A stretch of 64,000 nt of DNA from Candidatus Cloacimonadota bacterium (GTDB lineage Bacteria; Cloacimonadota; Cloacimonadia; Cloacimonadales; Cloacimonadaceae): assembly GCA_020532085.1 (NCBI GenBank), contig JAJBAV010000001.1, positions 62,001-126,000 on the forward strand, in the 5' to 3' direction. This document shows positions 5,340-21,260 of this stretch, piece by piece. Below the pieces are notes generated by a model that was given only the letters and a program-made list of their open reading frames with translations, was not told the DNA's origin and ran no database searches. Numbering within the stretch: the stretch's first letter is position 1; each line of letters begins with the position of its first letter. The position numbers were made by a program, and so were the translations under genes.

Positions 5340-6818
5340 TCATTGAATTCCCGCCCCAGGAACCGGAGTGAACCTTCTGGGCTGGTGAATCACATAATAG
5401 CCGCATTCTTGTCCTGGAGGATAATTGGGATTGTCAGTACCGTCAAGGAGGTAGTCGTCCACATTGGCCGGAAGCCAGTAGTTGTTGGTGGCATCCACGT
5501 CATCATATACGTATGTATAATATGGAGGAGCGTCATTTTGCCTGATCACAACAAAATACTGGGCAGTACGGTAGAAATCGTTGTAGTTGATCTGCATTGT
5601 GCCCAATGGACGTATGGTCCAGCGTGTGGAGTAATAGAATTTGTTATAAGCAATGATTTCATTGCCGCTCCCTTGGTGCACATCGATCATGCCATGTTCA
5701 AACTCATTATGAGTAATAGAACCTGAACAGGTCAAATTGGCCACGCCAAATCTGGAATTGTAAAAATAGTTGTTGTTTATATCAAAATCTCCAATAATTG
5801 ATATGCTTATCCCGTAGCCTTGATTCATGAAAACGCAGGAGGATACATCAAATGGCCCCGGCTGAGAGCTGAACAACTGAAATCCCATGTTGGCACAGTC
5901 AGCTGTGATCACATTGCTGATGCTGGCGTTCCCCTGCAAAATCGATAGTCCCGTGTTACCGTGTTGCATGAGCATATTGTTCACTACACAATAGTCGTTG
6001 AAGACGCCCACAGTGTTGGCGAAATAGCGCACTATCCCCCCCTGTAGCCGAGAGTCTTCGCCCCGCAACTCCAGACCGCCAAAATAGTCGTCGGGTCCCA
6101 ATTCCAACGCAGAGGTTGTGAATGCCTCCCTGGCCGGCAGTATCCTCCAAGCGTCATTGATATCACTGGCTTCCACAGTAATGAACCCACCATAGGCCTT
6201 GAAGGAGCTGCCAGGCCCCATGTAGATCCGGGACCCGGGCTGTATTGTCACCGTGCCTGTGAAGGAAGCAGTTTCCCCTATAAAATAACAGTGGTCCCTC
6301 TTAAACACCACGTCCTCGCTATGATATGTACCCAGAATGGTTACAGGAAACAGCTCCAGGCTGCCCAGGTCCATTTCCTGACCTGCTTCCAGCGAGAGGC
6401 CGCAAATATACCTTACCCCCCATTGCGGGCTGATGAATGCCAGATTATAGGCGCCGGGTGTGATTTCTTCCAGATCGAAGCTGCCATCTGCTCCGCTGGT
6501 TGTCAGTTTCAATGGTTCCTCTCCCCGGTGGTCAAACTCTGTCTCCTGGCTGATGGTCACCCCGATTTGAGGATACTTGGTGTTCAGTCTTACAATGGTG
6601 GTATCCAGTACTGCCGGCGCATACAGCGCGATGGTGACCCCCGCAAAATCCACCGGGTCCAGCAGCGGATCTCCGCTGTCGTTGGTCAGGACCACCCTCC
6701 CCACCAACTTGGCTGTCGTGGGCTTGGTGCAGGATGAACAGCCCAGCAGAGCCAACAGGAAAAACAGGCTCAGCAAGGATAATACTGGGATGCCACTATA
6801 AAGGGAGATTCTTTTCAT
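5340..6818 (-). CDS. Lipoprotein with right-handed beta-helix domain
   Basis: 492 residues. The N-terminus is a lipoprotein signal: basic start, hydrophobic stretch 10-25, lipobox LLGC with Cys27. Residues ~35-150 resemble a carboxypeptidase-regulatory (CarboxypepD_reg) beta-sandwich. From ~160 on, short repeated strands such as GNASISNVITADCANMGFQ and DFDINNNYFYNSRFGVANLT form the pattern of a NosD/pectate-lyase parallel beta-helix. Such proteins bind or cleave polysaccharide; no catalytic residues stand out. The start follows a strong GAGGAGG and overlaps the upstream membrane gene as TAATG, so it is coupled to it. A role in handling the glycan made by this operon at the cell surface is inference. 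Confidence 0.75.
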   Translation of the reverse strand: MKRISLYSGIPVLSLLSLFFLLALLGCSSCTKPTTAKLVGRVVLTNDSGDPLLDPVDFAGVTIALYAPAVLDTTIVRLNTKYPQIGVTISQETEFDHRGEEPLKLTTSGADGSFDLEEITPGAYNLAFISPQWGVRYICGLSLEAGQEMDLGSLELFPVTILGTYHSEDVVFKRDHCYFIGETASFTGTVTIQPGSRIYMGPGSSFKAYGGFITVEASDINDAWRILPAREAFTTSALELGPDDYFGGLELRGEDSRLQGGIVRYFANTVGVFNDYCVVNNMLMQHGNTGLSILQGNASISNVITADCANMGFQLFSSQPGPFDVSSCVFMNQGYGISISIIGDFDINNNYFYNSRFGVANLTCSGSITHNEFEHGMIDVHQGSGNEIIAYNKFYYSTRWTIRPLGTMQINYNDFYRTAQYFVVIRQNDAPPYYTYVYDDVDATNNYWLPANVDDYLLDGTDNPNYPPGQECGYYVIHQPRRFTPVPGAGIQ

Positions 6819-8092
6819 TATGCCTCCTCAAGGGTGCTAATGCTTTGCCCAGAATTCTTCCAAAAAACCTCTTTGACGAACCATAGGGCTACCAGCGCCA
6901 CCATAAAATCCAAAGGCAGGCGGTAACGCTCCATGGGCCAGACCATCAGTGTATGGACCAGGCTGTGGAACAGCGGCAGGCCAGCCAGCAGCAGGATTCG
7001 CCATCTTCGCCTGATGAAAGCGAGCACACAGCCCGCGAGGTAAAAGGGTAGATAGATTCCGTAAAACAACAGGCTGCTGAGGTTGTGCCCCAAAGACCAC
7101 TTTATTCCCCTGAATCCGTACTGGATGAAGGTCAGGCGAAAATTGGCTGGTTTCCAGTAATGCCAAAAAGCTTTCCAGTACTTCTCGTACTTTCCGTATT
7201 CCTTGAACTCAACTCCCTCTTCAATCGCCCAGGCCTGCGCTTCCTGAACCGATCTTCTATAGCCTGGATGGGCTTTGACGCCATTTTCCGCGCTGAAGTG
7301 CAGCTTGCCCAGATCCCTCCCCCAAAATCTGGAGGTTATGGTGGTTGTACGCGGGGTAAGGATTACCAATTGATCGTGTTGTTTATAGTTTCGCAGTGTC
7401 CAGGGAACCATGCTCAGCATCAGGATCAGCAATGCCAATCCTGCCTTTTTTAACCCTGACGGCAGCCCGCCCATTAGCACCAAAGCAATCAGGATAATTG
7501 GAAAATAGGCTATGAACCGCTCATCCGTGTGGATAAGCAAAGAATACAGAAGGATGCCGCTTATCAGGTTCAGGTTTTCTTTCTTTTTCTCATGCACATG
7601 GAGCAAGCAAAGTAGTATCAGCGGAATAATGAGCGTGAGCAGGGGTTCCTTGAGTATCTGGAAGTTCAGCCTGATCAAACCAAAATTGAACACCGCCCAT
7701 AAAGCCATGAAATAGCCTGTCGCTACGTTTACCAACCTCCGTCCCAAACTAAACAACACAAAGACCAGTAAAGAACTCAGGAAACAGTTAAGTAGCAGCA
7801 TAGGCAATATCGGATCCCCAGCCAGTTTGGTTGCCAGCGCGACCAGCAGGGGAATCACCGGTCCCACGATCAGGTATGGGCGCCCCGCGAAGCTGGGATA
7901 GAAATCACCTGAGGCAAAACTTTTGCCGTATTTCAGATAATTTGCCGCGTCAGCCCAGTTGTCTGTTCCGTAAGCTTGATACTCATCCCAGGTGAAGTAC
8001 ACTCTGACAACCAGAGCCAGGACGAACAGCAGGCCCAGGGTCAGTAACCTCTTTGAATCGATTTTTTGGAATATTTGTATGACTTTTCTCAT
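6818..8092 (-). CDS. Polytopic membrane protein, family 39-like glycosyltransferase
   Basis: About 424 residues with ten or more hydrophobic segments. The first periplasmic loop has FTWDEYQAYGTDNWADAANY, in which the acidic residues after helix 1 match the catalytic/metal loop of PMT/ArnT-type (GT39/GT83) transferases that use polyprenyl-phosphate sugars. LVVRVYFTWDEY and the later ERYRLPLDFMVALVALW near the C-terminus also fit. I use ATG 8092; an in-frame GTG at 8107 is the alternative. It would transfer a lipid-linked sugar onto an acceptor outside the membrane. The acceptor is unknown. The gene ends in a TAATG overlap with the beta-helix lipoprotein. Confidence 0.7.
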   Translation of the reverse strand: MRKVIQIFQKIDSKRLLTLGLLFVLALVVRVYFTWDEYQAYGTDNWADAANYLKYGKSFASGDFYPSFAGRPYLIVGPVIPLLVALATKLAGDPILPMLLLNCFLSSLLVFVLFSLGRRLVNVATGYFMALWAVFNFGLIRLNFQILKEPLLTLIIPLILLCLLHVHEKKKENLNLISGILLYSLLIHTDERFIAYFPIILIALVLMGGLPSGLKKAGLALLILMLSMVPWTLRNYKQHDQLVILTPRTTTITSRFWGRDLGKLHFSAENGVKAHPGYRRSVQEAQAWAIEEGVEFKEYGKYEKYWKAFWHYWKPANFRLTFIQYGFRGIKWSLGHNLSSLLFYGIYLPFYLAGCVLAFIRRRWRILLLAGLPLFHSLVHTLMVWPMERYRLPLDFMVALVALWFVKEVFWKNSGQSISTLEEA

Positions 8093-8183
8093 TTCTTCTG
8101 TTCCCACGCGTGTGCTTTACTCTTGGTCACTTGATATAAAACACCGGGCTCTGGCACGCGTTTCGCTCTCAGCAAAGCCATCT

Positions 8184-8759
8184 TCAGGACTCCCCTGCGG
8201 GGTATCTCTTTACCACCTTGGCCGGTACGCCCCCCACCAAGGTATAAGGCTCAACATCTCTGGTTACCACAGAACCGGCCGCCACTATCGCCCCCTCGCC
8301 GATCCTTACTCCCGGCAGGATTATGCTGCCGATCATCAGGCTCACATCTTCTTCGATGTAGGTGTCTTTTACCAAATAGCCCAATTCAAATACCTTGTCA
8401 CCCTGTTTATAACTGCCCAGATCCCGGTTATGAGCTATTATCTGCACCCGGTTCAGGATCCTGGTCCCATTGCCGATATGCACTTTTTGCGGATAGACGC
8501 TGTCTATGATAACGTCCTGGCCAATGAACACATTTTTACCCAGATCCACACCGCGGCATTTATGCAAAAAAGGTCTTAAGACGCGGGAATTGAGTGGTGC
8601 CAATAGCACAGACCTTGCCGCCATGGCTTGCAGGATCTCGTTTCGCCATATCCGCAAAGCTGATCCGGCCAGGCCAATAAAACCCCTGCCACCGTAGGTA
8701 ACAGGGGACAGCCTGAATCCTAGTTTTGTCAGGATCCTAAACGTAAAGGTCTGTCTCAT
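8184..8759 (-). CDS. Left-handed beta-helix (hexapeptide) acyltransferase
   Basis: 191 residues. Hexapeptide repeats fill residues ~70-180 (GVDLGKNVFIGQDVII, VHIGNGTRILNRVQIIAH, and IGEGAIVAAGSVVTRDVEPY), with the closing GGVPAKVVKRY typical of the maltose/galactoside O-acetyltransferase group. The conserved His of IIAHNRDL is placed like the catalytic base. It likely O-acetylates a sugar of the glycan or a sugar intermediate using acetyl-CoA. The start lies inside the end of the upstream LPG-synthase-like gene (23-bp overlap). The N-terminal ~60 residues are less conserved and may be helical. Confidence 0.88.
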   Translation of the reverse strand: MRQTFTFRILTKLGFRLSPVTYGGRGFIGLAGSALRIWRNEILQAMAARSVLLAPLNSRVLRPFLHKCRGVDLGKNVFIGQDVIIDSVYPQKVHIGNGTRILNRVQIIAHNRDLGSYKQGDKVFELGYLVKDTYIEEDVSLMIGSIILPGVRIGEGAIVAAGSVVTRDVEPYTLVGGVPAKVVKRYPAGES

Positions 8760-9783
8760 CGCTACTCTCCACCGGGTCGTTCTTCCGGCATCTGGTGTCT
8801 TTCATTTTCCAGCCAAGAAATGACAGCCCCCCCAACAAACCTTGTATGATCAGGATGCTGGACATCAGAAAGGCCGTGCTGAAAGCCAGCTCTTCCGATA
8901 TCCCTGTCTGGGGAAAAACCATCACGGCCACATACTCCCGCAAACCTATGCCTCCCACCGAAACAGGTATGATCCTTGATATCATGATGGAAAAAACACC
9001 GGCAATGAATCCCCACACATGAAAATTTACCTGCCTCATCAGGGTATAGCAGATCAACAGGTACATCAAACCCATCAGGCCGTGGCGCAAGCCAGCCGCC
9101 ACTGTGTTAATGCCGATCATCCGGGCGTATCCTTCCCGATGGGCAAACTCAGTGTGCCCCAATGCGCCCCGGTAGCCAATTTTCGCTGCCAATTTCTTCG
9201 ACAGGTTGAAGAGGGCGACATTGTTGATCGCCAATATGATCAACGCCTCCACTGCCAAAAGAACCAGCAGGGCCAGTTTGAAAGCCTGGGGCACCTTGAT
9301 CACAGGCAACCACCAAAAGGGTATCAGTACCAAGGTAAGGCTGAATGTATAGATCAGCCTGTCAATCAACACCACCAGGGTGTTTTTAGCATAACTCGCG
9401 TTATTCAAGATCTTGAATGACTGGATCTTGTAAGCGTCGCCCAAGAGAGGGAAAGCCAGTGAAAAGAACAAGCCGTGGAACTTGATGAAAAAAACGTCGC
9501 GGAGCCTGGCCGTCACGCCATAATAGCCGTAGAGTGATTTTACCCGCCAGCTGTTGATCAGGATATCCAGCACCAAGATAAGCGGTATCAGGATAAAAAA
9601 ATACACCGGAAAGTTTCTGAGGTACGCCCAAAATTGCAGCGGATCAACCTTTCTGCCAGCCACGTACAACAGCGCCAAAGTGATGATGATCTGGCCCAGC
9701 CATTTGGCTGTTTGCCAACTATTTTTTCTCAACAAATCTGGAGTACACTTCTTTACAGGTACAGAAATCCTGCCTGAATGCAT
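8737..9783 (-). CDS. LPG-synthase TM-region / UPF0104-family membrane protein
   Basis: About 348 residues with eight or so transmembrane segments. The sequence has the family look of the membrane half of lysylphosphatidylglycerol synthase (UPF0104): FKILNNASYAKNTLVVLIDRL at the middle and RIIPVSVGGIGLREYVAVM near the C-terminus, the latter being the conserved G-G-x-G-x-R-E block. Members act as flippases or lipid/glycan-linked transporters, and are frequent next to glycosyltransferases. The ATG at 9783 overlaps the deacetylase gene by 65 bp and lacks a clear ribosome binding site. A TTG at 9735 behind AAAGAAG is a good alternative start. Confidence 0.8.
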   Translation of the reverse strand: MHSGRISVPVKKCTPDLLRKNSWQTAKWLGQIIITLALLYVAGRKVDPLQFWAYLRNFPVYFFILIPLILVLDILINSWRVKSLYGYYGVTARLRDVFFIKFHGLFFSLAFPLLGDAYKIQSFKILNNASYAKNTLVVLIDRLIYTFSLTLVLIPFWWLPVIKVPQAFKLALLVLLAVEALIILAINNVALFNLSKKLAAKIGYRGALGHTEFAHREGYARMIGINTVAAGLRHGLMGLMYLLICYTLMRQVNFHVWGFIAGVFSIMISRIIPVSVGGIGLREYVAVMVFPQTGISEELAFSTAFLMSSILIIQGLLGGLSFLGWKMKDTRCRKNDPVESSDETDLYV

Positions 9784-10675
9784 GCAGAAGCTTGATCAGG
9801 TTCCTCTCCGTCCGTTCGCCTTTGTTGATCCAAACCAGCGGCCGGTTTTTGGATATTGGGGAAGGGATCTTCTCCCGGGTGAGTTCCAGAGGGTGCATGT
9901 AAAACATCGTGTCACCCTTCTTCAGGTCGTTCGAAATCACGCTCCGGAAATAATGATAGCCCAGCAAGCGGAAAAAGTAACCGCCTCCGGCTGGCAGGAC
10001 CAGTTTTTGTGATATCTCTTTCCTGCTCCAAGGCAGTTCCACAAGTTCTGTAACCGGCGGCTCAGCGTTCAGGGTGTGCTGGTTCAGATAATACGGCAAC
10101 GAGGGGATGTTCTCCAAGGTTACGTTGGTTTTGTTGTATATGGTGTTGTAGGCTACAGAGGAATCGTATCTGAAGCCAGCTTCAAGCAGCAGGGGCACCA
10201 TCCAGCTGGCGAAATAGGCGTTGGGAGCCCGGTAACCGGTCACCTCCTTCTGGAACACTTTCTCCAGCAGCTCTTTTGCCTTCACCAAATCCTGATACCA
10301 TTCCGCCTGAGGCCTTAGTTCTCTCTTGGTATGGGAATCCAGAGCGGAATGATGGGCTAGGCCATGGCAGGCTATTTCATGTTCGCTTTGCCTGAGCATG
10401 TTCACCAGCTCCGGATAGCGCTGAGTGATCTCTGCCACGATAAAAAAAGTGCAGCTTATTCCCAGATCTTTCAGGATGCCCAGCAGCCTCTCTGTTTCTT
10501 TTGTGATCAGGTCCCTGAATTGTTCCCCATGCTGTTCGAAGAAATCTTGGGAACTGCTGAACTGAGAGAAGGATGATCCGCTCACCATGGGAGTATGATA
10601 CCAGTCTTCTATGTCAAAAGATAGGGCTATTCTATGCGTTGAATTCATTTGATTATTATTTGTATAAACGATCAT
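9719..10675 (-). CDS. Polysaccharide deacetylase (DUF3473/XrtA-locus type)
   Basis: 318 residues with a NodB-homology fold. Seen: IALSFDIEDWYHT near 17-29 with the catalytic Asp pair, HEIACHGLAHH with the two zinc-binding histidines, and VTGYRAPNAYF. The C-terminal part, PWSRKEISQKLVLPAGGGYF and FYMHPLEL, is typical of deacetylases associated with PEP-CTERM/XrtA exopolysaccharide loci, although no exosortase is visible here. The enzyme removes N-acetyl groups from hexosamines in a glycan. There is no signal peptide, as in others of this subgroup. Start at ATG 10675 overlaps the upstream glycosyltransferase by 20 bp; ATG 10648 is possible. Confidence 0.9.
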   Translation of the reverse strand: MIVYTNNNQMNSTHRIALSFDIEDWYHTPMVSGSSFSQFSSSQDFFEQHGEQFRDLITKETERLLGILKDLGISCTFFIVAEITQRYPELVNMLRQSEHEIACHGLAHHSALDSHTKRELRPQAEWYQDLVKAKELLEKVFQKEVTGYRAPNAYFASWMVPLLLEAGFRYDSSVAYNTIYNKTNVTLENIPSLPYYLNQHTLNAEPPVTELVELPWSRKEISQKLVLPAGGGYFFRLLGYHYFRSVISNDLKKGDTMFYMHPLELTREKIPSPISKNRPLVWINKGERTERNLIKLLHAFRQDFCTCKEVYSRFVEKK

Positions 10676-11756
10676 TGTCCTGAATATCCATCCACATCGC
10701 GAATAGCAAAGACTGAGATGCGCTTACAAACAAGAACATAAACATCAGCGTGTTCAAAACTGGTTTTTCGCCGTATATCCCCCTAGCTAATAGATACTGG
10801 ACAATTCGCACGGCAAAGGGAATGCAGAAAAGATAGAGAAAGAGGGAAAGATTGTATAAGATGAAAAGCGGATGAAAGTCGTTGATGAAGTATTTGGTCC
10901 AGATCCTTCCAATAAAGGATCTGAAAAGCAGCCAGGATATCCGTGGAATGACCTTGTGGACTCTCATCTTGGAATTCTCTCCCACCCTGTAAACTGGCTT
11001 GATGGGGATTTCCCTGATTGTGCATCCTGCGATGTTCAGCTTCACCAGCATGTCGTTGGGCATTCCATAGCGGGGATAGATGTCATAGAGCTTAATTGAA
11101 TTCAAGGCTGAGTTTGAAATAGCTGTGTATCCAGTCTGGGTGTCTGAAACGCGCCAGTAGCCGGATGCTGCTTTTGTCATCAGGGAAAGTACGGAGTTGC
11201 CGAAAAACCTTGTTTTTGGTATGAATACCCTGGCGCTGCCATGCGAGAGCCGGTTGCCCTTCACATAATCCACCCCCTCCGCTACAACCGGATAGCAGAT
11301 GTCGTAAAGCTCACTGGGATCCATTTGCGCGTCTCCCGCCATCACGGCCGTACAGTCTATGTGGTGGTCCTTGCACCATTTATAGCCTCTGGCTATGGTT
11401 TGGCCCACCCCGGCGTTTTTTTCATTCCGAATGACCACGATCCTGTGATCTGGTTCTTCATGAATGATTGTAGACGGGGTAAACAATGCCATCTCTTCCC
11501 TATTTAGTCGTTCCAGTACTTTTTCGGCCTCGTTGTGAAAGCTGCTCTCTATTGCTTCTTTTACCGAAAGTGGCCGGCTTGCATTGTTACTTCGGTTATA
11601 ATACTTAGCTAGGGCAGCCTGTGTCCCATCTGTCGAATTATCATCCACAATCACAATTCTATCAATATAATCTGGCATTGTTTCGATAACGATGCCAATT
11701 TGGGACTCCTCGTTGTAAGCCGGAACGACAACTGCTAATGTGTTATCGTTGATCAT
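10656..11756 (-). CDS. Family 2 glycosyltransferase, polyprenyl-phosphate type
   Basis: 366 residues. The N-terminal GT-A domain has VVVPAYNEESQIG, IVIVDDNSTDGTQ at 33-45, and VMAGDAQMDPSEL, the D-x-D-like block of dolichol-phosphate-mannose/undecaprenyl-phosphate-sugar synthases. An insertion of about 50 residues (after TQAALAKYYNRSNN) separates the second and third strands. DTQTGYTAIS and IPIKPVYRVGENSKMRV follow, and the last ~100 residues carry two membrane segments. It likely makes a polyprenyl-phosphate-linked sugar, which would fit the GT39-like transferase further down the operon as its user. That link is inference. Confidence 0.88.
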   Translation of the reverse strand: MINDNTLAVVVPAYNEESQIGIVIETMPDYIDRIVIVDDNSTDGTQAALAKYYNRSNNASRPLSVKEAIESSFHNEAEKVLERLNREEMALFTPSTIIHEEPDHRIVVIRNEKNAGVGQTIARGYKWCKDHHIDCTAVMAGDAQMDPSELYDICYPVVAEGVDYVKGNRLSHGSARVFIPKTRFFGNSVLSLMTKAASGYWRVSDTQTGYTAISNSALNSIKLYDIYPRYGMPNDMLVKLNIAGCTIREIPIKPVYRVGENSKMRVHKVIPRISWLLFRSFIGRIWTKYFINDFHPLFILYNLSLFLYLFCIPFAVRIVQYLLARGIYGEKPVLNTLMFMFLFVSASQSLLFAMWMDIQDNDRLYK

Positions 11757-11783: not shown

Positions 11784-12719
11784 TCACAAAGCTAAGCATC
11801 TCTTTCCCTCATGCAAGCTTTTTTGAACGGCAATGCCTACATCATTCGAAAAAATATCCGCCCCCTTTTCATTTAAATGATGCCAATCAACGAACAACTC
11901 GGCATTATCCAGATACTTGCGATCTTCAGAAAAATCAAGTAACTCAATGCTATGATCTTCAGAGAAGTTTTTTATTAAATCAAACCCAACTGGTTTTGCC
12001 ATCGTATATCTGGGAGAGTAGAGATAAATCAGTGTTATATTCTTATCTCTGCACAAGTTTGCGAATCTGACGAAGTAATTCCATGCTAAAGGATCAAAGT
12101 TTTCATCAGCTTGCAGTTTTTTATCTGTTTGACGGGCTATTGGAATCTGCGCAAGATCCAGGGTGCCCCTTCGGGGAATGAACCCTTCAATTGAGGAATC
12201 TGAGCTGTTCAAATATGCATGGGTAATACCAAAGATCTTCTGATTCATGGCATAAAGAGGTATCGCAAATTTGATCCCAGCCAAGGGATCTCGTTTTCTC
12301 AAAACTTCATGAACTTCTTTGTTTTTATCATAATACGGAAAAAAATCAGCTATTGCTCCATCCAGGTTCTTGCCCAGATCACCTATCTCATATAGTATTG
12401 CCTCGGGTGTATGATTTTCGAGTAGTAGGTTGAGCATGCAATATTGGTATGCAGCGTTTGAGGAAGCTACCCCAGCATTGTAAACAGAGCTTGAGCTTAA
12501 ATAACTGCTGATTATTGCTGGATTGTAATGCCTTAAAGCCCTTGAAGCTCCAAAAATATATACATCAGCTTGTGTCCTTTGAATGCTGTTTATCTTTAAA
12601 TAATTCGTCTCCCCTGCGCCCATTTGCTGCAGAGCGCCATAAACGATCCAATTAGCCGCATAAAAGAGTGCAATGGCAAGACCAATTTTATAAATCAATT
12701 TCATCTTAGAATTTTTCAT
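11784..12719 (-). CDS. SGNH-hydrolase-like membrane-anchored protein paired with MBOAT
   Basis: 311 residues. One N-terminal membrane segment (about 8-30) precedes a soluble domain with IFGASRALRHYNP (Ser59 in a G-x-S-x block) and DWHHLNEKGADIF near 278-290, the D-x-x-H of SGNH hydrolases. This is the arrangement of DltD/AlgX/AlgJ-like proteins that work with MBOAT acyltransferases to move an acyl group onto a glycan outside the membrane. The gene overlaps the upstream MBOAT gene by 14 bp. It is noticeably more AT-rich than its neighbours, suggesting a separate history for this module. The catalytic role of the two motifs is inference. Confidence 0.72.
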   Translation of the reverse strand: MKNSKMKLIYKIGLAIALFYAANWIVYGALQQMGAGETNYLKINSIQRTQADVYIFGASRALRHYNPAIISSYLSSSSVYNAGVASSNAAYQYCMLNLLLENHTPEAILYEIGDLGKNLDGAIADFFPYYDKNKEVHEVLRKRDPLAGIKFAIPLYAMNQKIFGITHAYLNSSDSSIEGFIPRRGTLDLAQIPIARQTDKKLQADENFDPLAWNYFVRFANLCRDKNITLIYLYSPRYTMAKPVGFDLIKNFSEDHSIELLDFSEDRKYLDNAELFVDWHHLNEKGADIFSNDVGIAVQKSLHEGKRCLAL

Positions 12720-14109
12720 AAATAAAGGCCATGCTCTCCAGATTGCCTATCAGCAGAATTGTAACAGCCAGTCCTAGGTATGTTCCCCATCGTGTAATCA
12801 CTCTGTGACTGTCTATCCACTCATCGAATTGCTTCTTATTCAGTAAGATCTCGAACAAGACAAGAATTGACAAACCGAATGACATGTATGTAAATATTGT
12901 TGCCGAACCATAGTAAAAGTTAAGTGAGAACTTTGCAGTATTTGCAATATGCTCCTTCATGTGTTTAAAAGATGGTAAGCGGAAAAACATCAAGCCAAAT
13001 GCCAAAGCAAGATATGTGGCCGCTCGCTTGAGAGTGTTAACGATTACATTAGCTGATTTTTTCCGTCCCAGCCCGGTTGCGTCTTCAAATATGAGATACC
13101 CAGACTGGATCAATCCCCAGATAAGGAACATCCAGCCTGCCCCGTGCCAGAAGCCCATAACCAGAAACATCACCAGGATACCCAAGTAAACCTTTGGCTT
13201 TGAAGTGCTGCTGCCCATAAAGGGAAAGAACACGTATTCCCGAACCCAGGATGTGAGAGAAATGTGATTCCTCCTCCAATAGTCGGTAACCGAGGTTGAA
13301 TTCACGTAGGGCGTCCGGAAATTGACCATCAGGTCATAACCGAAGAGTTTGGCCACACCCCTGGCGATATTCGTGTAACCCCCAAAATCTGTGTACAACT
13401 GAAAAGGATATAGCAGAGCGGCAACGATCAGAGTCAGGCTTGAATGCATGGGAATATTGCCATAAATTGCGTCAACATACAAGGCAATGTTATCCGCGAC
13501 CACCATTTTCATGAACAGACCCCAGAGAATGAGTCTGAAGCCGTTGGCGAAGTTGTCGTAAGCCATCAGGTGTTCGGTTGTGAATTGTTTGAACAGGTTT
13601 TTGGCCCTGCCGATGGGACCGCAGAGGATCTGGGGGAAAAAGGCAAGGTATAGGGAAAGAGTGAGGTAATTCCTCTGGTGCTTGATGTCGCCCCAATACA
13701 CGTCCAGGATGTAACCCAGAGCCATGAAGGTGTAGAAGGAAATCCCTATGGGCAGGATCAGGCTGTATTTGGGAATGGAAATATCCAAGCTTGCGCTTCG
13801 GAACAGAGCGTTTAGCTGATCGCTGAAGAAATTGAAGTACTTGAAGAGGAACAGCAACCCGATGTTAAACACCAGCGCCAGGCCCAGGAGAAGCTTTTTC
13901 CGCTGGGGATGGTTGTCCATGGCTTTGGCAGTGAAGTAGTTGAAGGCGGTGGAACCCAGAAGGATAATCAGATATTCTGCTTTAAAACTGAAATAGAAAT
14001 AATAACTTGCGGCCAACAGCAGCCAGTTCCTGTATCTTTTCGGTAAAACGTAGTACAGGACCACCACCGCGAACAGGAATAGGAAGAAAGGTATTGAGGT
14101 AAATTGCAT
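12706..14109 (-). CDS. MBOAT family acyltransferase (AlgI/DltB-like)
   Basis: 467 residues, polytopic, with the MBOAT signature: SVTDYWRRNHISLTSW, FRTPYVNSTSVTDYW and MGFWHGAGWMFLIWG, in which His322 is the family catalytic residue. AlgI/DltB-type MBOATs take an acyl group from a cytoplasmic donor and pass it across the membrane to an exported polymer. Here the genes immediately upstream encode a KASIII, an acyl carrier protein and a ketoreductase-like SDR, so the donor is probably an acyl-ACP made on site. The gene is 2 bp from the SDR gene and overlaps the SGNH-like gene. Confidence 0.92.
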   Translation of the reverse strand: MQFTSIPFFLFLFAVVVLYYVLPKRYRNWLLLAASYYFYFSFKAEYLIILLGSTAFNYFTAKAMDNHPQRKKLLLGLALVFNIGLLFLFKYFNFFSDQLNALFRSASLDISIPKYSLILPIGISFYTFMALGYILDVYWGDIKHQRNYLTLSLYLAFFPQILCGPIGRAKNLFKQFTTEHLMAYDNFANGFRLILWGLFMKMVVADNIALYVDAIYGNIPMHSSLTLIVAALLYPFQLYTDFGGYTNIARGVAKLFGYDLMVNFRTPYVNSTSVTDYWRRNHISLTSWVREYVFFPFMGSSTSKPKVYLGILVMFLVMGFWHGAGWMFLIWGLIQSGYLIFEDATGLGRKKSANVIVNTLKRAATYLALAFGLMFFRLPSFKHMKEHIANTAKFSLNFYYGSATIFTYMSFGLSILVLFEILLNKKQFDEWIDSHRVITRWGTYLGLAVTILLIGNLESMAFIYEKF

Positions 14110-14110
14110 C

Positions 14111-14872
14111 TTAGGCCAACGAGTATCCGCTGTCTATTACAATATTCGTTCCAGTAATGGCTTTGCCCAGATCCGATATCAGATATGCGCAGAGATTAGC
14201 CACGTCCACGGGTTCAACGAGACCAAGCAAATGCCTGGTTTGGATGGCTGCAACAGATTCCGCAGGCAACTCCTCAAATACGTTTTTAAGCATCTCGGTC
14301 TCTACCATAGCGGGTGACACGCTATTTACCCGGATACCCTTGCTTGCAAGCTCTCGTGACATTGATCTTACCATGCCGAACATCGCTGATTTGCTGCTCG
14401 AATATTCAATGTTGCCTTTCTCTCCAAGCATGCCCCTGATCGATGATATATAAACGTAGCTGCTTCCATTCTTATCGTAGACCTTTGGGCGTGAAAGCAT
14501 CTGAGCGATCATCACTCCGGCGATCAGATTAACTTTCAACATGTTGGCGTATGCATTGGGGTCGATACTCTTCAGCGGACTGGTCCATTCAATTCCCGCA
14601 CTGTGGATGAATCCGGCCAGAGGTCCATCCGCCGATAGAGTTGGAAACCCCGCCTGGAGCTCATCGCTGTTGCCTATGTCGCAGGCCAGACTTTGATGTC
14701 CGGAGCCCTGCAGCAAAGATATTGTTTCAGCCAGGCGCTCCTCGTTGCGCCCCATGGCCACGATCCGGGCACCCAGGCTGCTGCATACAACTGCACAAGC
14801 CCTGCCGATCCCGGAAGAGGCCCCGGAGATCAGAATGCGCTTGCCTGTAAGGACCTTGTCCGACCAAAGCAT
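14111..14872 (-). CDS. Short-chain dehydrogenase/reductase, ketoacyl-ACP-reductase-like
   Basis: 253 residues with a Rossmann fold. Seen: ISGASSGIG at 15-23 for NAD(P), NVN-like KVNLIAG, the catalytic Ser around 143-144, and YSSSK at 157-161. The C-terminal ITGTNIVIDSGYSLA is the usual SDR end. The place between an acyl carrier protein gene and an MBOAT gene suggests it reduces a 3-oxoacyl-ACP to the 3-hydroxyacyl form. Sequence alone does not exclude a sugar-nucleotide or other alcohol substrate. It is 2 bp from the ACP stop and 1 bp before the MBOAT start. Confidence 0.88.
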   Translation of the reverse strand: MLWSDKVLTGKRILISGASSGIGRACAVVCSSLGARIVAMGRNEERLAETISLLQGSGHQSLACDIGNSDELQAGFPTLSADGPLAGFIHSAGIEWTSPLKSIDPNAYANMLKVNLIAGVMIAQMLSRPKVYDKNGSSYVYISSIRGMLGEKGNIEYSSSKSAMFGMVRSMSRELASKGIRVNSVSPAMVETEMLKNVFEELPAESVAAIQTRHLLGLVEPVDVANLCAYLISDLGKAITGTNIVIDSGYSLA

Positions 14873-14874
14873 TG

Positions 14875-15105
14875 TCAGTTGAAACTATCCTCGCCGATCA
14901 GATCAACCAGGGACTGGACAGTGTCAATGTTATTGAGTTGCCTAGCGTTGAACTGCTTCCCGAAATTCTTGTGGATATAGGCCACCAGACTCATGATGGC
15001 CATGGAATCGTATTCCTCGTAGTCTTTCAGATTGCTATCCAGGCTGAGATCAGCTTCGATCTCGATCAATTCAACCAGTTCCTGCATAAATGTCTGCAGT
15101 GTCAT
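14875..15105 (-). CDS. Acyl carrier protein
   Basis: 76 residues. The 4'-phosphopantetheine attachment serine is Ser34 in YEEYDSMAIMSLV, at the head of helix II; the sequence is acidic, as expected for an ACP. It differs from housekeeping AcpP in having DSM in place of DSL, a common feature of specialised ACPs. It lies 9 bp from the KASIII gene and 2 bp from the SDR gene and so is likely a dedicated carrier for the acyl group used by the MBOAT protein. Confidence 0.9.
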   Translation of the reverse strand: MTLQTFMQELVELIEIEADLSLDSNLKDYEEYDSMAIMSLVAYIHKNFGKQFNARQLNNIDTVQSLVDLIGEDSFN

Positions 15106-15114
15106 TACTTCTCC

Positions 15115-16098
15115 TCAAATGGTGATTATGGTTGCGCCGTATGAATAACCCACGCCAAATCCCGCCAGCAACACCCTGTCCCCCGTTTTGATTATTCCTT
15201 TGCCCAGGCAGTCTTCCAGGGCCAGGGGAATGGTTGCCGAAACTGTGTTGCCCGTCTCAAGCATATTGATGTAAAATTTGTCTTCCGGCACCGAGACCAG
15301 TTCCCTGAGATATTGCAGCATGTATTGGTTCGCCTGATGGAAGATCACATAGTCGATGTCTTCAATATTGCAGTTATTTTTGCTTAAAACCTGGCTGATC
15401 ATTTTTGGAACAGCTTCAATAGTAAAATTGAAGATCTCCGGCCCGTTCATGTAGAGATTGTTGTCATTCCGGATCGCCCCATTCTCGTCCGTCCAATCCT
15501 GTGCGTTGGGATCATACGCTTTTCTGAGTCCGCCATTGGGTACGATCAGGTTGTTCCAGCCGGTTCCGTCCGTGCCCAGCGCAAAATCGTGAATTTTGTC
15601 CGTGTCCTCTTTTGTGATCAGCACCGCCGCGGCCGCGTCGCCAAAAATGCTGCGGTTGCCCTTGTCCAAGGGATGCAGGTGCTTGGAATAGGTTTCCGCC
15701 ATCACCAGGATCAGCTTGGATGCCGCCCCGCTGACCAGCAGGCCCTTGGCCAGGGACAAGCCGTAAACGAAACCGGAACAGCCAAGGTTGAAATCCAGGG
15801 CGCCGATCTCGTTTTTAAGTCCCAGCCGCTCCTGAAGGATGCAGGCTGAGGTGGGCAGATAATAGTCCGGGCTTTGCGTGCATAGAAGCAGAAAATCAAC
15901 TTCGGCTTTGTCCTCACCCTGCAGCAGTTTCTGGCAAGCATAATAAGCCAGGTCAAGCGCGGTTTCATTGTCTGCTGCTACATGCCGGGAGCGTATGCCG
16001 ATCTTTTTCTCGATCTTGCCGGCTGACCACTCAGGGAACCTCTCCGCCAGATCCTGGTTGGTGAGAACTTTCTCGGGAAGATATGACGCAAACTTCAT
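15115..16098 (-). CDS. 3-oxoacyl-ACP synthase III (FabH-like)
   Basis: 327 residues of the thiolase-fold KASIII family. The catalytic triad is visible: Cys107 in NLGCSGF, His254 in IFHQANQ, and Asn284 in TGNTVSATIP. It condenses an acyl-CoA with malonyl-ACP to yield a 3-oxoacyl-ACP. Being first in a polysaccharide operon, followed at once by its own ACP and an SDR, it is more likely to prime a special acyl chain than to serve bulk fatty acid synthesis. No elongation enzyme or dehydratase is in the cluster, so a short product such as a 3-hydroxyacyl group is expected (inference). Confidence 0.92.
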   Translation of the reverse strand: MKFASYLPEKVLTNQDLAERFPEWSAGKIEKKIGIRSRHVAADNETALDLAYYACQKLLQGEDKAEVDFLLLCTQSPDYYLPTSACILQERLGLKNEIGALDFNLGCSGFVYGLSLAKGLLVSGAASKLILVMAETYSKHLHPLDKGNRSIFGDAAAAVLITKEDTDKIHDFALGTDGTGWNNLIVPNGGLRKAYDPNAQDWTDENGAIRNDNNLYMNGPEIFNFTIEAVPKMISQVLSKNNCNIEDIDYVIFHQANQYMLQYLRELVSVPEDKFYINMLETGNTVSATIPLALEDCLGKGIIKTGDRVLLAGFGVGYSYGATIITI

Positions 16099-16139: not shown

Positions 16140-17522
16140 TCACTTATGATGCTTCCTGATGAACTCCTCCACCTCCGGCAGCCCGCCCTGGAAGACAAGG
16201 TAGCCGTTGTAAGGTTCGCCCGGAGTAATATCTCCGGCGATGGGGGTCAGCATCAGTTCGCGCACTTGGTCGGGTTCGGAGTGCTGTCCCAAAGCCCAGC
16301 CCAGCTTGATGTAGGCCACTTCCGGCAGCAGATTCTCGCCCGGCACGATGCCCATGCTCATCAGGTCGCGCCCGGTGTCGTAAACGAACATGTGCACAAA
16401 GCCCCAGAGGGTTTGCACGGTCATGTAGATCTGCACGCCCTTGGCCACGGCGCGCTGGATGGCGGGGTACAGGGGCTTGTTCACGTGCCCCAGCCCGGTG
16501 CCGGCGATCACGATGCCCTTGTAGCCGTTCTCGGTGAGGGAATCTATGATGTCCGGATGCATGTTGGGGTAATAATAAACGATGGCCACCCGCTCCTCGA
16601 AGAAGGGCAGCACGGTCACCTTTTTATCGGATCTGCGTTTATGGTAATCCGTCTTGATGGGGATCACGGCGTCCCGGGTCACGCGGGCAATGGGCACATC
16701 GCCGATGGTGCGGAAGGTGCTGCGGTAGGAGGAGTGCATCTTGCGCACCCGGGTGCCCTGGTGCAGAAGGCCGTATTCATCGCTGGTGGGGCCGAACATG
16801 CAGACCATAACCTCAGCGATGTCAGAATGCCCGGCGGTGAAGGCCGCGTGCATCAGATTGAGCGCGGCGTCTGAGGAAGGGCGGTCGCTGGAGCGTTGCG
16901 AACCCACCATCACCACGGGGATGGGCAGGTCCCGCAGCATGTAGGAAAGCGCCGCCGCGGTGTGGTGCATGGTGTCGGTGCCGTGGCCGATGATGATGCC
17001 CTGGGTGCCGCGCTCCACCTCTTTGCCGATGGAGATGGCCAGTTTCTTGTACTGCTTCGGGCCCATGTTTTCGGAAAAAACGGCGAAGAGCTTTTCGGTG
17101 TCCAGATTGCAGATGTCCGCCAGTTCCGGGACCGCGCCGTAGAGTTCTCCGGGCGAAAAAGCCGGGATCACGGCGCCAGTGCGATAATCCAGCCGCGAAG
17201 CGATGGTGCCGCCGGTGCCGAGCAGCTTCACTTTGGGCAGCCCCGGCGTGAAGGGGAATTCTTTTTCCGGGATCTTGTAATGCGCTTCCTTATAGCCGGT
17301 CTCTGTCATGCCCAAAATGGTGGCCACGTCGATGCCGACGTTGTAACCGGTGACGAGCTTGAGCACGATGTGCTGGTCGTCGTCGTTCTCGCTGCGGGGC
17401 AGGATGATGCCCTGGAACGTGCCGCGGGTGGTCTCCACCGTGGTGTCACCCCAAACCCTGGCCTGAAAATGCTTCAGCACCTCCAGCGCGCGGCCCTTGT
17501 ATCCTTTAAAAAGATCCAGCAT
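16140..17522 (-). CDS. gatD: Glutamyl-tRNA(Gln) amidotransferase subunit D
   Basis: 460 residues, an asparaginase-like subunit that releases ammonia from amide donors for the transamidation of Glu-tRNA(Gln). It has the extra N-terminal domain (1-90, with GYKGRALEVL and GIILPRSENDDDQHIVLKL) that separates GatD from plain L-asparaginase. Catalytic blocks follow: GTGGTIASR with Thr106 and IIGHGTDTM with Thr182/Asp183, plus VMVGSQRSSDRPSSDAALN. GatD works only with GatE, whose gene is the next amidotransferase gene on the same strand (18434-20563). GatDE is normally described as an archaeal system, so its presence here is unusual. Convergent evolution is unlikely given the N-terminal domain. Confidence 0.93.
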   Translation of the reverse strand: MLDLFKGYKGRALEVLKHFQARVWGDTTVETTRGTFQGIILPRSENDDDQHIVLKLVTGYNVGIDVATILGMTETGYKEAHYKIPEKEFPFTPGLPKVKLLGTGGTIASRLDYRTGAVIPAFSPGELYGAVPELADICNLDTEKLFAVFSENMGPKQYKKLAISIGKEVERGTQGIIIGHGTDTMHHTAAALSYMLRDLPIPVVMVGSQRSSDRPSSDAALNLMHAAFTAGHSDIAEVMVCMFGPTSDEYGLLHQGTRVRKMHSSYRSTFRTIGDVPIARVTRDAVIPIKTDYHKRRSDKKVTVLPFFEERVAIVYYYPNMHPDIIDSLTENGYKGIVIAGTGLGHVNKPLYPAIQRAVAKGVQIYMTVQTLWGFVHMFVYDTGRDLMSMGIVPGENLLPEVAYIKLGWALGQHSEPDQVRELMLTPIAGDITPGEPYNGYLVFQGGLPEVEEFIRKHHK

Positions 17523-18433: not shown

Positions 18434-20563
18434 CTAATTCGTGGACAGGTCTTTTTCAATGGCTTGTCTCAAATCACTTAGTGGAATGTTACCCAGAGCC
18501 ATTTTGTGGAGCCGGCCCATCATCCAGTGCTGGATGGCATCCGGCCGTTTCAGACCGCGTGTTTTGGCCCGCGGCCACATGGCTTTTAGCAGCGGCACCT
18601 GTTCCAGTATCTCCGCCGGCGGGGTTTCTTTGTAGCCGATCACCGCCAGCACCGAGGAGAACTGCATGTTGGGCTGTTCGTAGAGCACTTTCAGCATCTG
18701 AGGCAGGATATCCGGCTGCAGCTGGCGTTTGTTGACAAAGATGAGCAGATCCTCCACCCGCTGGTGGTCGAAGGGCAGCGGATCGCGTCCCTGCAGGCCT
18801 TTCAGCAGATGGGCGTAGAGCAGGCCCAGGCGTTTGGGCGCGATTGCGTGTTTCGCGGAAAACTCTTCCAGAACCGGCATCAGGTTGTTACGCAGCAGAT
18901 AGGTATAGGCGTCGGCGGGGATGCCCCACTCCGCCAGCTGTTGCAGCCTTGTCGCCAGATCCACCGGCAGGTCCTGCCGCGCGGTTTCGATCATCTCTTC
19001 GTGGATTGGGATCGGTGCTGAATCTGTATCCGGATACATCCTGTCCGCGCCGGGCAGCACCCTTTCGAAGAGCGTGATCCCGTCCGGCAGGGATTTGCGG
19101 GTCTCGTTGGGAACGCCCGCGAAGGCCAATTGGCAGCGTTCCTCGATGGTCTCCAGCGCGGTCTTGATGTCTTCGTCCGGCGCCCAGAAGAGGAGCTGGG
19201 CGTCTTGATCCCCGGCTTTGAGTTCCGCGCGGAGCCTGGTCCAATCGGATTCGCTTAATGTGGAGGCTGAGCCGGTATTGGTTGACTGGATCCCGGCCTG
19301 CGCCGGGATGACGGTGGAATCGGCTATTGCCGATATGCTCGAGTCGCTGCCCGTGCCTCGCTCGACTCCAGCGATCTCCTCCGAGTGGAACATGTTCGGC
19401 AGTTCCAGGCAGGCGATCACTTTGAGGCGGTCAGAGATCTCGTCGGCGAAGCAGCGTCCGGGCTGGTTGAAGAAGCTGAGGATGCCGGAAAAGCGCGGCA
19501 GATTGACCGAGACCAGCTTCCAGCCCTCGCTTCCGGCCTGCTTCAGCAGGGGGATGTGACGCCAGTCGGCAGGGTCTAAAAATATGTGGTTCAGCTTCCA
19601 CTTCGTCGGATCAGCAACTCGCTTACGCAATTCCTCGCGGATCAGCAGCAGAGATTTTTGGCGAAACGCCTCGTTGTGCGTGAGTTTGGGGATCCAGGAG
19701 ATGTGCGCCACACCCTTGATCTCGACCCTGGTGCCGCCCGCAATGGAAACGTTCACATCCTCGCGGGCCGCGCCGATGCCGGTGCGCGCCAGGCCTGAAC
19801 TGCGCGCGATGAAGCGGATGTTTTGGGCCGCTTCGGCCGCTTCCCAGGGCGTTTCCATGTCCGGATAGGTTACCGTTTCGATCAGCGGCATGCCCAGCCG
19901 GTCGGCAAAATAGGTGCGGGTGTGCCTGACATCCGAAACCTCGCGGCAGCTGTCTTCCTCCACGGAAAACTGGATCACGCGGATGGTTTTGGTGGAGATG
20001 GGAAATTCGCCTTCGATGCCGAGGATGGTGGTGCGCTGGAAGCCGGTGGGTATGCTGCCGTCCAAATACTGTTTGCGGGTGATGTGCAGTTCGCCCACGA
20101 TCTTCAGCTTCAGCAGCAGGGCGATCTTCATCGCCTGTTCCAAAGCCTCGCGGTTCAGCGGGAACGGCGGGGTGTCGTCCACTTCGTAGGTGCAGGCGCT
20201 GTCATTGTTGATGCGGTAAACGATCTTTTTCCGCGTCTTGAATTCCATCAGAGCGGTGCCGTCATACTCACCCAGTTCAGACAAAGTGGGCCGCATATGA
20301 CGCACGATCTCGGCGTCGAAATCGTCGAAATCGTGGTACCTGCCCGCGGGACAGCGGCAAAAAAGTTTCCGGGAAGTGTTCAGTTGCTGGTGAACTTCCA
20401 GGCCGCACCTGAACCCAAGCTTCCGCCAGGTCGCTTGCACGGCGTCCGGAAGGCTGACCCAGCCGGTGTCGTCCCGGCTGCGCAACCAGTTTTGTTGGTG
20501 AGGGTTGTCCAAATATGGTTCCCTAATATGTAATGTAAGGACCACACTCCGCAGGCGCGCCAT
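18434..20563 (-). CDS. gatE: Glutamyl-tRNA(Gln) amidotransferase subunit E
   Basis: 709 residues. GatE carries the kinase/transamidase and tRNA-binding functions of the GatDE enzyme that turns Glu-tRNA(Gln) into Gln-tRNA(Gln). Seen: GLEVHQQLNTSRKLFCRCP at 54-72, the GatB/E cradle with YLDGSIPTGFQRT and VEEDSCREV, an AspRS-like GAD insertion (about 325-480, WKLVSVNLPRFSGIL), then GVPNETRKSLPDGITLFERV and a helical YqeY-like tail. Archaeal GatE proteins are about 620-635 residues. The extra length lies at the N-terminus and in ~30 residues near 397-426, which are encoded by a dispersed repeat. The true start may be further in, since the first ~45 residues are not family-like. Confidence 0.92.
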   Translation of the reverse strand: MARLRSVVLTLHIREPYLDNPHQQNWLRSRDDTGWVSLPDAVQATWRKLGFRCGLEVHQQLNTSRKLFCRCPAGRYHDFDDFDAEIVRHMRPTLSELGEYDGTALMEFKTRKKIVYRINNDSACTYEVDDTPPFPLNREALEQAMKIALLLKLKIVGELHITRKQYLDGSIPTGFQRTTILGIEGEFPISTKTIRVIQFSVEEDSCREVSDVRHTRTYFADRLGMPLIETVTYPDMETPWEAAEAAQNIRFIARSSGLARTGIGAAREDVNVSIAGGTRVEIKGVAHISWIPKLTHNEAFRQKSLLLIREELRKRVADPTKWKLNHIFLDPADWRHIPLLKQAGSEGWKLVSVNLPRFSGILSFFNQPGRCFADEISDRLKVIACLELPNMFHSEEIAGVERGTGSDSSISAIADSTVIPAQAGIQSTNTGSASTLSESDWTRLRAELKAGDQDAQLLFWAPDEDIKTALETIEERCQLAFAGVPNETRKSLPDGITLFERVLPGADRMYPDTDSAPIPIHEEMIETARQDLPVDLATRLQQLAEWGIPADAYTYLLRNNLMPVLEEFSAKHAIAPKRLGLLYAHLLKGLQGRDPLPFDHQRVEDLLIFVNKRQLQPDILPQMLKVLYEQPNMQFSSVLAVIGYKETPPAEILEQVPLLKAMWPRAKTRGLKRPDAIQHWMMGRLHKMALGNIPLSDLRQAIEKDLSTN
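19286..19376. repeat. Dispersed repeat inserted in frame in gatE
   Basis: The palindrome at 19286-19312 (CTGGATCCCGG...CCGGGATGAC) is the same unit as at 4196-4259. The following block, ending TCGCTCGACTCCAGCG, resembles the blocks at 45676-45712 and 45795-45830, in the same order. Read as gatE codons it gives the telltale VIPAQAGIQ. It falls in the GAD-domain region and keeps the frame open. Confidence 0.8.
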
Positions 20564-20850: not shown

Positions 20851-21260
20851 ATGTCATTCCGGGGTAGGGGCCCCGGAATCCAGGCTAATAAGATCAATTA
20901 AAACAGAGGGACAGAGACACAGAGAAATGGGAAAAGGTAGCCTCACACAAGTTTATCAGATCGCACAGATCTGAAAATAACGGGTCACAGAATAGCGCGG
21001 AATAAGGGAAAATGCATTTAGAAAAAGAGGGAAGAAGATGTATGTCATTCCGGGGTAGGGGCCCCGGAATCCTGGCTAAAAAAGTTCTATTAAAACAGAG
21101 GGCCAGAGACACAGAGAAATGGGAAAAGGTAGCCTCACACAAGTTTATCAGATCGCATAGATCTGAAAATAACGGGTCACAGAATAGCGCGGAATAAGGG
21201 AAATGCATTTAGAAAAAGAGGGGAGAAATGTATGTCATTCCGGGGTTGGGGCCCCGGAAT
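20851..21260. repeat. Tandem ~190-bp repeat, two full copies and a partial third
   Basis: Units start with ATGTCATTCCGGGG at 20851, 21042 and 21232 (spacing 191 and 190). Each full unit holds a GTCATTCC/GGAATCC palindrome, then an A-rich stretch (AAAACAGAGGGACAGAGACA), CACACAAGTTTATCAGATCG and GGGTCACAGAATAGCGCGGA. Small internal differences show independent decay. No open frame of substance is conserved across the copies. Confidence 0.9.

Follow-up and report, generated by a model that had tools for sequence, protein, structure and literature searches.

The 64,000-nucleotide stretch of contig JAJBAV010000001.1 that was analysed (positions 62,001 to 126,000, forward strand; hereafter the window), from a Candidatus Cloacimonadota bacterium, carries on its minus strand, from 16098 down to 11784, five packed genes that encode, in order of transcription, a β-ketoacyl-ACP synthase III (KASIII), an acyl carrier protein (ACP), a short-chain dehydrogenase/reductase (SDR), a membrane-bound O-acyltransferase (MBOAT) and an SGNH acyltransferase. 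With a probability that we put at roughly two in three, this module is a carrier-protein-fed MBOAT–SGNH system that makes its own acyl group and places it on an extracytoplasmic glycan; by analogy with studied loci, the group would be a 3-hydroxyacyl, probably 3-hydroxybutyryl. Families, residues, gene order, the dedicated ACP and the MBOAT signatures are observations; product and acceptor are inferred.

15115–16098, minus strand: KASIII of clade A, apart from FabH, condensing type, Cys107-His254-Asn284 (Pfam/NCBIfam, PDB 3gwa, alignments, tree)
14875–15105, minus strand: dedicated ACP, phosphopantetheine-bearing Ser34 in the sequence DSM (PF00550, alignment)
14111–14872, minus strand: FabG-like classical SDR (ketoreductase), Asn115/Ser144/Tyr157/Lys161 (Pfam/NCBIfam, PDB relatives, alignment)
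12706–14109, minus strand: MBOAT O-acyltransferase, His282/His322, Asn281, PFMG (296-299) in place of PLGG (Pfam, alignment, DltB fold)
11784–12719, minus strand: membrane-anchored SGNH acyltransferase of DltD-like fold, Gly57-x-Ser59, Asp278-x-x-His281 (motifs, AlphaFold2 (AF2) fold)

The gaps between successive genes are 9, 2 and 1 bp, followed by a 14-bp overlap of the MBOAT and SGNH genes. A sequence-only reading of this DNA had seen five genes in a row at 12706–16098, with gaps or overlaps of 2–14 bp; all five are present and tightly spaced, but that interval spans only four of them, the SGNH gene lying at 11784–12719, and the gaps start at 1 bp. The first four genes match Pfam families above cut-off (ACP_syn_III/_C, PP-binding, adh_short_C2/KR and MBOAT, respectively).

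The acyl-forming trio

The cassette KASIII retains Cys107, His254 and Asn284, which align with the Cys-His-Asn triad of E. coli FabH; it matches PDB 3gwa at 331 bits, and its score against the FabH model TIGR00747 (246.8 bits) falls under the cut-off of 292.1. Its identification with the genome's FabH was rejected, since it belongs to a separate clade of the tree and the genome has its own FabH elsewhere, and a role as a mere acyltransferase is not favoured, the Asn of the condensing triad being kept; the condensing type proposed from the sequence alone is thus borne out. Indeed, the genome (2.8 Mb in 98 contigs, 99% complete) holds a separate fabH-fabD-fabG-acpP cluster on contig 25, and the cassette is therefore additional. 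Furthermore, PF00550 matches only twice in this genome, in the cassette ACP, where Asp33-Ser34 is kept in the alignment, and in the fab cluster, so that the cassette ACP represents a second, separate carrier, as had been claimed when it was called dedicated.

In the KASIII tree, in which 24 Chryseobacterium loci were thinned to 4, two clades stand apart from FabH, namely A (70 rows, the window included) and B (25 rows). Loci with two KASIIIs mostly pair one member of each clade, the exceptions being L044, L096 and the second set in L097. At the position of E. coli FabH Leu142, which we take to be a pocket residue, clade-A enzymes have Tyr (5/5 aligned) and clade-B enzymes Val, Ile or Lys (3/3), a difference that may mark starter versus extender KASIIIs. 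In Pseudomonas syringae, N-(3-hydroxybutyryl) viosamine is the product to which the genes vioS, acp, vioR and vioB have been assigned (PMC3927599); in Flavobacterium psychrophilum, a 3,5-dihydroxyhexanoyl group of measured structure has been attributed to wfpC-F, and wfpG is a PglD-type transferase (PMC6519341). Since one KASIII goes with four carbons in the former organism and two KAS enzymes with six in the latter, the single KASIII of the window points to 3-hydroxybutyryl.

The same machinery could nevertheless yield a longer 3-hydroxy- or a 3,5-dihydroxyacyl group, if the KASIII accepted a larger or branched starter or acted twice. This alternative, which overlaps the reading proposed here and differs from it in the product only, draws on the pairing of clades A and B, which together with the two KAS genes behind the 3,5-dihydroxyhexanoyl group (PMC6519341) makes chain length seem to be set by the KASIII complement, and on the altered CoA-binding positions of the cassette enzyme described below; the presence of a single KASIII in the window and the clade-A Tyr, which would narrow the pocket if the role assumed for this position is right, make it rather doubtful.

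The SDR is a classical enzyme of 253 amino acids with a Pfam KR match and many FabGs among its best solved relatives, and its alignment shows Asn115, Ser144, Tyr157 and Lys161, presumably the catalytic tetrad of the family. Pfam, NCBIfam and the solved relatives agree with the earlier description of the SDR as ketoreductase-like, i.e., FabG-like rather than of the sugar-nucleotide kind. The opposite possibility, that it acts on a sugar nucleotide or another metabolite and that the acyl group stays 3-oxoacyl or is of another kind, could appeal to the score of the protein, which lies under every FabG equivalog cut-off of NCBIfam, and to its being the least conserved of the trio (35–55% identity among the window, G034 and G087, versus 47–76% for the ACP); however, the length, class, KR match and FabG relatives just mentioned led to its rejection as the principal reading, the SDR travels with the ACP and the KASIII, and the P. 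syringae vioR mutant, deprived of the same kind of reductase, is reported to lose the 3-hydroxyacyl-modified sugar, its glycans consisting of rhamnose only (PMC3927599), so that we consider such a role very improbable. Judged from their sequences, the enzymes of the module look active.

The MBOAT–SGNH pair

The MBOAT keeps both His282 and His322 and ends in an FxYxxF motif (FIYEKF, 462-467). Its AF2 model (mean pLDDT 79, pTM 0.82) matches best the fold of DltB (6bug, E 4e-9), and its score against the DltB equivalog TIGR04091 (132.7 bits) is under the cut-off of 375. The SGNH protein matches no Pfam or NCBIfam family; its G-x-S and D-x-x-H motifs are invariant among 5 aligned relatives and its AF2 model (mean pLDDT 79, pTM 0.79) finds its best fold match in DltD (6o93, E 7.9e-6). 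The transfer pair proposed from the sequence is therefore present, complete with an acyl-shuttle motif; in PatA and DltX the FxYxxF tail is reported to carry the acyl group (PMC12148441). The MBOAT is a hybrid, going with a carrier protein like Dlt and having the FxYxxF shuttle fused at its own C-terminus like PatA.

In an IQ-TREE analysis of 44 rows, the MBOATs linked to a KASIII-ACP-SDR trio in seven Cloacimonadota, Prevotella and UBA3734 group as a single clade (100/98), although the accompanying KASIIIs belong to two different clades and the gene order differs. In a free quick tree of 61 rows, which includes MBOATs collected by sequence alone, the ligase-linked MBOAT of L161 falls inside these nine; holding the nine together gives a better likelihood and, without L161, they are a clade at 97. 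The duplicates L047 and L089 were left out of both trees, and long-branched and truncated rows as well as most Chryseobacterium rows were also left out of the second. All nine have an Asn just before the first catalytic His (Asn281 in the window), a position occupied by Trp in the 50 other readable rows (0/50 with Asn) and, by alignment, in DltB, where this residue, Trp288, is described as lying, together with His289 and His336, in the active-site pocket (PMC11035591). A DNA pattern for the Asn form matched, among 124 Cloacimonadota genomes, exactly the seven that carry the cassette, and none of 395 Bacteroidota genomes, a draw whose list lacked the Prevotella genome G124. The notion that all MBOATs of this sequence group have a trio was rejected, for the top-scoring Bacteroidota MBOATs collected by sequence alone (from 552 bits down) have none within 1.5 kb on each side.

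Loss of the Gly-Gly motif next to an ACP gene

MBOATs without an ACP neighbour nearly all have the motif P-L-G-G 14–17 residues after the first catalytic His, whereas in the trio-linked ones the first Gly or both are changed (PFMG in the window). In DltB this stretch corresponds to the horizontal helix that serves as the docking site of DltC; counting without gaps from His289 puts the two Gly at Val305 and Ile306, both among the residues reported to touch DltC (PMC11035591). The association was examined in 116 MBOATs from Cloacimonadota, Bacteroidota and Treponema, a list that does not contain the window's own MBOAT; four had no readable motif (n = 112), and an MBOAT was counted as ACP-linked if its own strand had an ACP gene no more than 2.7 kb away. 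The motif is lost in 22/23 ACP-adjacent MBOATs and kept in 84 of the 89 without ACP (Fisher 1.5e-17, a value that takes no account of the tree). The regular expression was relaxed once, after two rows had been seen to read GLGG, by which the counts of lost with ACP, lost without ACP, kept with ACP and kept without ACP went from 22/7/1/82 to 22/5/1/84. The idea was drawn from the preceding comparison; 11 of the 22 linked rows lacking the motif lie outside the set that suggested it (L173, L176, L230, L250 twice, one of the two having a relative among the rows examined before, L257, L261, L262, L263, L271 and L275). On the tree, the loss requires six changes.

The genes preceding the ACP of ACP-adjacent MBOATs vary: some encode KASIII plus SDR, others FkbH, either without or with MaoC and SDR, and others again acyl-AMP ligases or a DltA-like adenylation protein; a Kbl-like protein is encoded in a single case. 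FkbH-ACP-MBOAT sets, two of them with MaoC and SDR genes in between, are found in Bacteroidota (L230, L250, L257, L274) and would suggest a glyceryl- or lactyl-like decoration of a glycan; acyl-AMP-ligase-ACP-MBOAT sets (L261 and L275 and, by position, also L262, L263 and L271) suggest that other acyl chains are moved by MBOATs lacking Gly-Gly. Within Cloacimonadota, L161 (G004:C32) has a DltA-like ligase-ACP-MBOAT-SGNH set and L173 (G044:C31) a Kbl-like (glycine C-acetyltransferase) gene before ACP-MBOAT-SGNH.

We lean, by a little, towards regarding these systems as a second and widespread donor class of MBOAT–SGNH pairs, fed by a dedicated ACP, with the shuttle tail on the MBOAT and interchangeable front ends (KASIII plus SDR in the window, FkbH, FkbH plus MaoC and SDR, fatty-acyl-AMP ligase or DltA-like ligase), a class that would be readable in the MBOAT by the loss of Gly-Gly and, in its KASIII branch, by Asn in place of Trp.

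Distribution of the module and of the trio

A survey of the five-gene order, which the sequence-only reading had named beforehand as a test, found the order conserved in 7/124 Cloacimonadota genomes (G000, G006, G008, G034, G038, G052, G087), G038 being counted although its MBOAT reads as two frames and its SGNH gene runs off the contig; in all seven the MBOAT and SGNH genes directly follow the SDR gene. Between G087 and G052, identity is 57% for the ACP, 59% for the SDR and 64% for the MBOAT and only 39% for the KASIII. Glycan genes neighbour the module in G000 and G052, and in G006 the neighbour is a gene that, judged by eye, is RmlB-like; in G034 the module lies beside purH and a gene for an ABC transporter, in G008 beside a comEC-like gene and in G087 beside an aconitase fragment, and the contig of G038 is too short for its context to be judged. 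In view of these varied neighbours, the module is a unit of its own, and its earlier placement “in a polysaccharide operon” applies to the window and is not general, G034, G008 and G087 having other surroundings.

A single scan of a species-genome collection with the KASIII alignment gave 80 loci, mostly of Bacteroidota, in one of which (L119) no KASIII was called. The KASIII-ACP-SDR block is uninterrupted in 49/80 loci; this recurrence, together with that of the five-gene order, indicates that the row of five is not due to chance. An MBOAT gene directly follows the block in 5/80, that is in L047 and L089, which are contigs of G034 and G087 again, in L097, in L101 (Prevotella) and in L124 (Treponema). 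The trio without MBOAT is common and already known from loci of sugar N-acylation; a clade-A KASIII occurs also in the vioA island of Burkholderia glumae, where a flagellar region of plasmid pBGF3 (L178) has vioA, the clade-A KASIII, ACP, SDR, an acetyltransferase and a Rieske protein, and a second KASIII in two overlapping frames (7254-8084 and 7900-8355) that is probably broken.

These data bear on the possibility that the cassette combines two separate functions, the trio feeding the acylation of a cytoplasmic nucleotide sugar by a hexapeptide transferase and the MBOAT–SGNH pair O-acetylating from acetyl-CoA. N-acylation is the role of the trio where it has been studied (vio and wfp; PMC3927599, PMC6519341), the gene directly following it encodes a hexapeptide transferase in 11 of 46 loci (with PglD_N in 10) and an MBOAT in five (46 of the 52 post-trio genes were run against Pfam, six short ORFs, of L049, L055, L080, L094, L099 and L111, being left out), and a hexapeptide transferase gene does exist in the window at 8184-8759. 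The latter, however, is separated from the SGNH gene by three others and lacks PglD_N, no homologue was found on the contigs (4.5–17 kb) of the other six cassette genomes, in which the MBOAT and SGNH genes invariably follow the SDR, and the trio-linked MBOATs are a clade of their own, with Asn281 and without the Gly-Gly kept by MBOATs that lack an ACP neighbour; a division into two functions is thus unlikely.

Proposed pathway

According to the reading preferred here, that of one carrier-protein-fed system, the cell's FabD would charge malonate onto an ACP, and the cassette KASIII would carry out a single condensation of this malonyl unit with a small starter, acetyl-CoA being the likeliest, to give a 3-oxoacyl-ACP that the SDR would reduce to 3-hydroxyacyl-ACP. 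Because the cassette contains neither a dehydratase nor an enoyl reductase, the chain would stop at the 3-hydroxyacyl stage, and one condensation plus one reduction, in conjunction with precedent, make 3-hydroxybutyryl the likeliest product. The holo-ACP would then dock on the cytosolic helix of the MBOAT, which would carry the group through the membrane and onto Tyr464 in its FxYxxF tail; from there the DltD-like SGNH protein would pass it on to an extracytoplasmic glycan as an ester. The acceptor in the window is probably the product of the glycosyltransferase genes located downstream. The interpretation given with the sequence-only reading is partly supported: its outline stands, and it is most likely that the module builds a 3-hydroxyacyl group on its own ACP and that this group is moved outside the cell. 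Of the two results named there as speaking against it, an SDR that acts on sugar nucleotides and a gene order that is not conserved, neither was obtained.

Several points weigh against this reading. The KASIII has Lys, Lys and Tyr at the positions of E. coli FabH Trp32, Arg36 and Arg249, which we take to be CoA/ACP-contact residues, so that an acetyl-CoA starter is not assured, and G052 has the same gene order with a KASIII of the other clade. The residue after the ACP Ser gave no clean signature of MBOAT-linked ACPs and was dropped as a marker, Cloacimonadota having DSM or DSF, and Prevotella and UBA3734 SSL. As it marks a single clade, Asn281 counts as one evolutionary event; the trio-linked MBOAT of Treponema (L124) has Trp instead, and its membership in the same clade was rejected (p-AU 6e-5). 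As to Gly-Gly, one MBOAT near an ACP gene keeps it (in L250, where the ACP directly precedes another MBOAT that lacks it), five MBOATs have lost it with no recognised ACP nearby (L201, L244, L249 (4081), L171 and L172), and independent pairs of motif loss versus ACP number about three in the expected direction and none in the opposite, so few that significance is out of reach. Finally, three of the seven modules (those of G034, G008 and G087) are not beside glycan genes, and no biochemistry was found for any member.

Genomic surroundings

Downstream of the module the following genes provide context and are not part of its core:

10656–11756, minus strand: GT2 glycosyltransferase with weak similarity to polyprenyl-phosphate-sugar synthases, 27 bp past the SGNH gene (Pfam/NCBIfam)
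9719–10675, minus strand: polysaccharide deacetylase, XrtA-system-like, below cut-off (Pfam/NCBIfam)
8737–9783, minus strand: LPG_synthase_TM membrane protein (Pfam)
8184–8759, minus strand: hexapeptide acetyltransferase without PglD_N domain, the rival partner of the trio (Pfam/NCBIfam)
6818–8107, minus strand: PMT_2-like glycosyltransferase, just at cut-off (Pfam)

Past the PMT_2-like gene there are more glycan genes, e.g., for a nucleotidyltransferase, a dTDP-sugar epimerase and a DegT aminotransferase. The guanine-plus-cytosine content, 44–53% over 1–16 kb versus 54–61% over most of 16–40 kb, fits an acquired origin. A terminator scan did no better than shuffled sequences (9 found versus 10.6), and a promoter scan was little above them (17 versus 11.7, standard deviation 3.8).

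Directly upstream of the module, on the minus strand of this bacterium, lie a gene for an archaeal-type Glu-tRNA(Gln) amidotransferase subunit, gatD (16140-17522; TIGR02153, 497.8 bits, over the cut-off), and, further upstream, one with a GatB/GatE domain (18434-20563); the latter, gatE-like frame contains the stretch VIPAQAGIQ, a peptide known from dispersed repeats. Also on the minus strand, the translation of an ORF at 20894-21208 repeats the same segment twice, which is probably a DNA repeat rather than a gene, and 35460-40922 encodes a secreted protein of 1820 amino acids with a Peptidase_C25 (gingipain-type) domain, a propeptide and, scoring slightly under its cut-off, a sorting domain at the C-terminus.

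Comparison with known systems

According to a 2025 paper, the line runs between Dlt, which has a carrier protein and DltX, and other MBOAT–SGNH pairs, which use acyl-CoA and no carrier (PMC12148441); the present module and the other ACP-adjacent MBOATs do not agree with this division. If the reading is correct, the genes before the ACP would tell which acyl group is put on a surface polymer and a few residues of the MBOAT which type of donor is used, glycan decoration would become predictable in uncultured phyla, and parts would be at hand for polysaccharides bearing chosen hydroxyacyl, glyceryl or fatty-acyl esters. In the open-licence PMC literature no description was found of the coupling of KASIII, ACP and SDR to an MBOAT–SGNH pair, nor of Gly-Gly loss tracking ACP adjacency.

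The contrast drawn in the sequence-only reading with DltA-like and acetyl-CoA-only systems was right, with the amendment that the trio was already known from N-acylation loci. Thus, the viosamine island of P. syringae (vioS-acp-vioR-vioB) likewise uses KASIII, ACP and SDR to supply a 3-hydroxybutyryl group for a surface glycan, but there a cytoplasmic VioB N-acylates dTDP-viosamine and neither MBOAT nor SGNH appears in the locus as described (PMC3927599); wfpC-wfpG of F. psychrophilum similarly provide an acyl group of the O-antigen by means of KAS, ACP and reductase genes, with the difference that two KAS genes, a 3,5-dihydroxyhexanoyl group and a PglD-type N-acyltransferase are involved (PMC6519341). 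In both loci a hexapeptide N-acyltransferase (VioB or PglD) stands beside the trio, in the place taken by the MBOAT in the window. A paper on flagellar glycosylation in Aeromonas mentions an AMP ligase accompanied by an ACP and a 3-oxoacyl-ACP reductase, which is not the present gene set (PMC7874193).

With the Dlt system (DltA-DltB-DltC-DltX-DltD) the module shares a carrier-protein donor, a DltB-fold MBOAT and a DltD-fold SGNH protein; it has KASIII and SDR and no AMP-binding gene where Dlt has the ligase DltA, and an FxYxxF motif fused to the MBOAT where Dlt has a separate DltX, a microprotein for which the gaps of 1–9 bp leave no room inside the module and which was not sought elsewhere in the genome. 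PatA/PatB and AlgI/AlgJ-type systems resemble the module in combining an MBOAT that has a C-terminal FxYxxF with an SGNH partner, but they are acyl-CoA users, said to have no carrier protein (PMC12148441), whereas the module has a dedicated ACP in 7/7 cassette genomes and its MBOAT, in the window, is changed both at the Gly-Gly motif and at the Trp before the first His. The novel feature of the module would be that its trio is linked to an MBOAT–SGNH pair.

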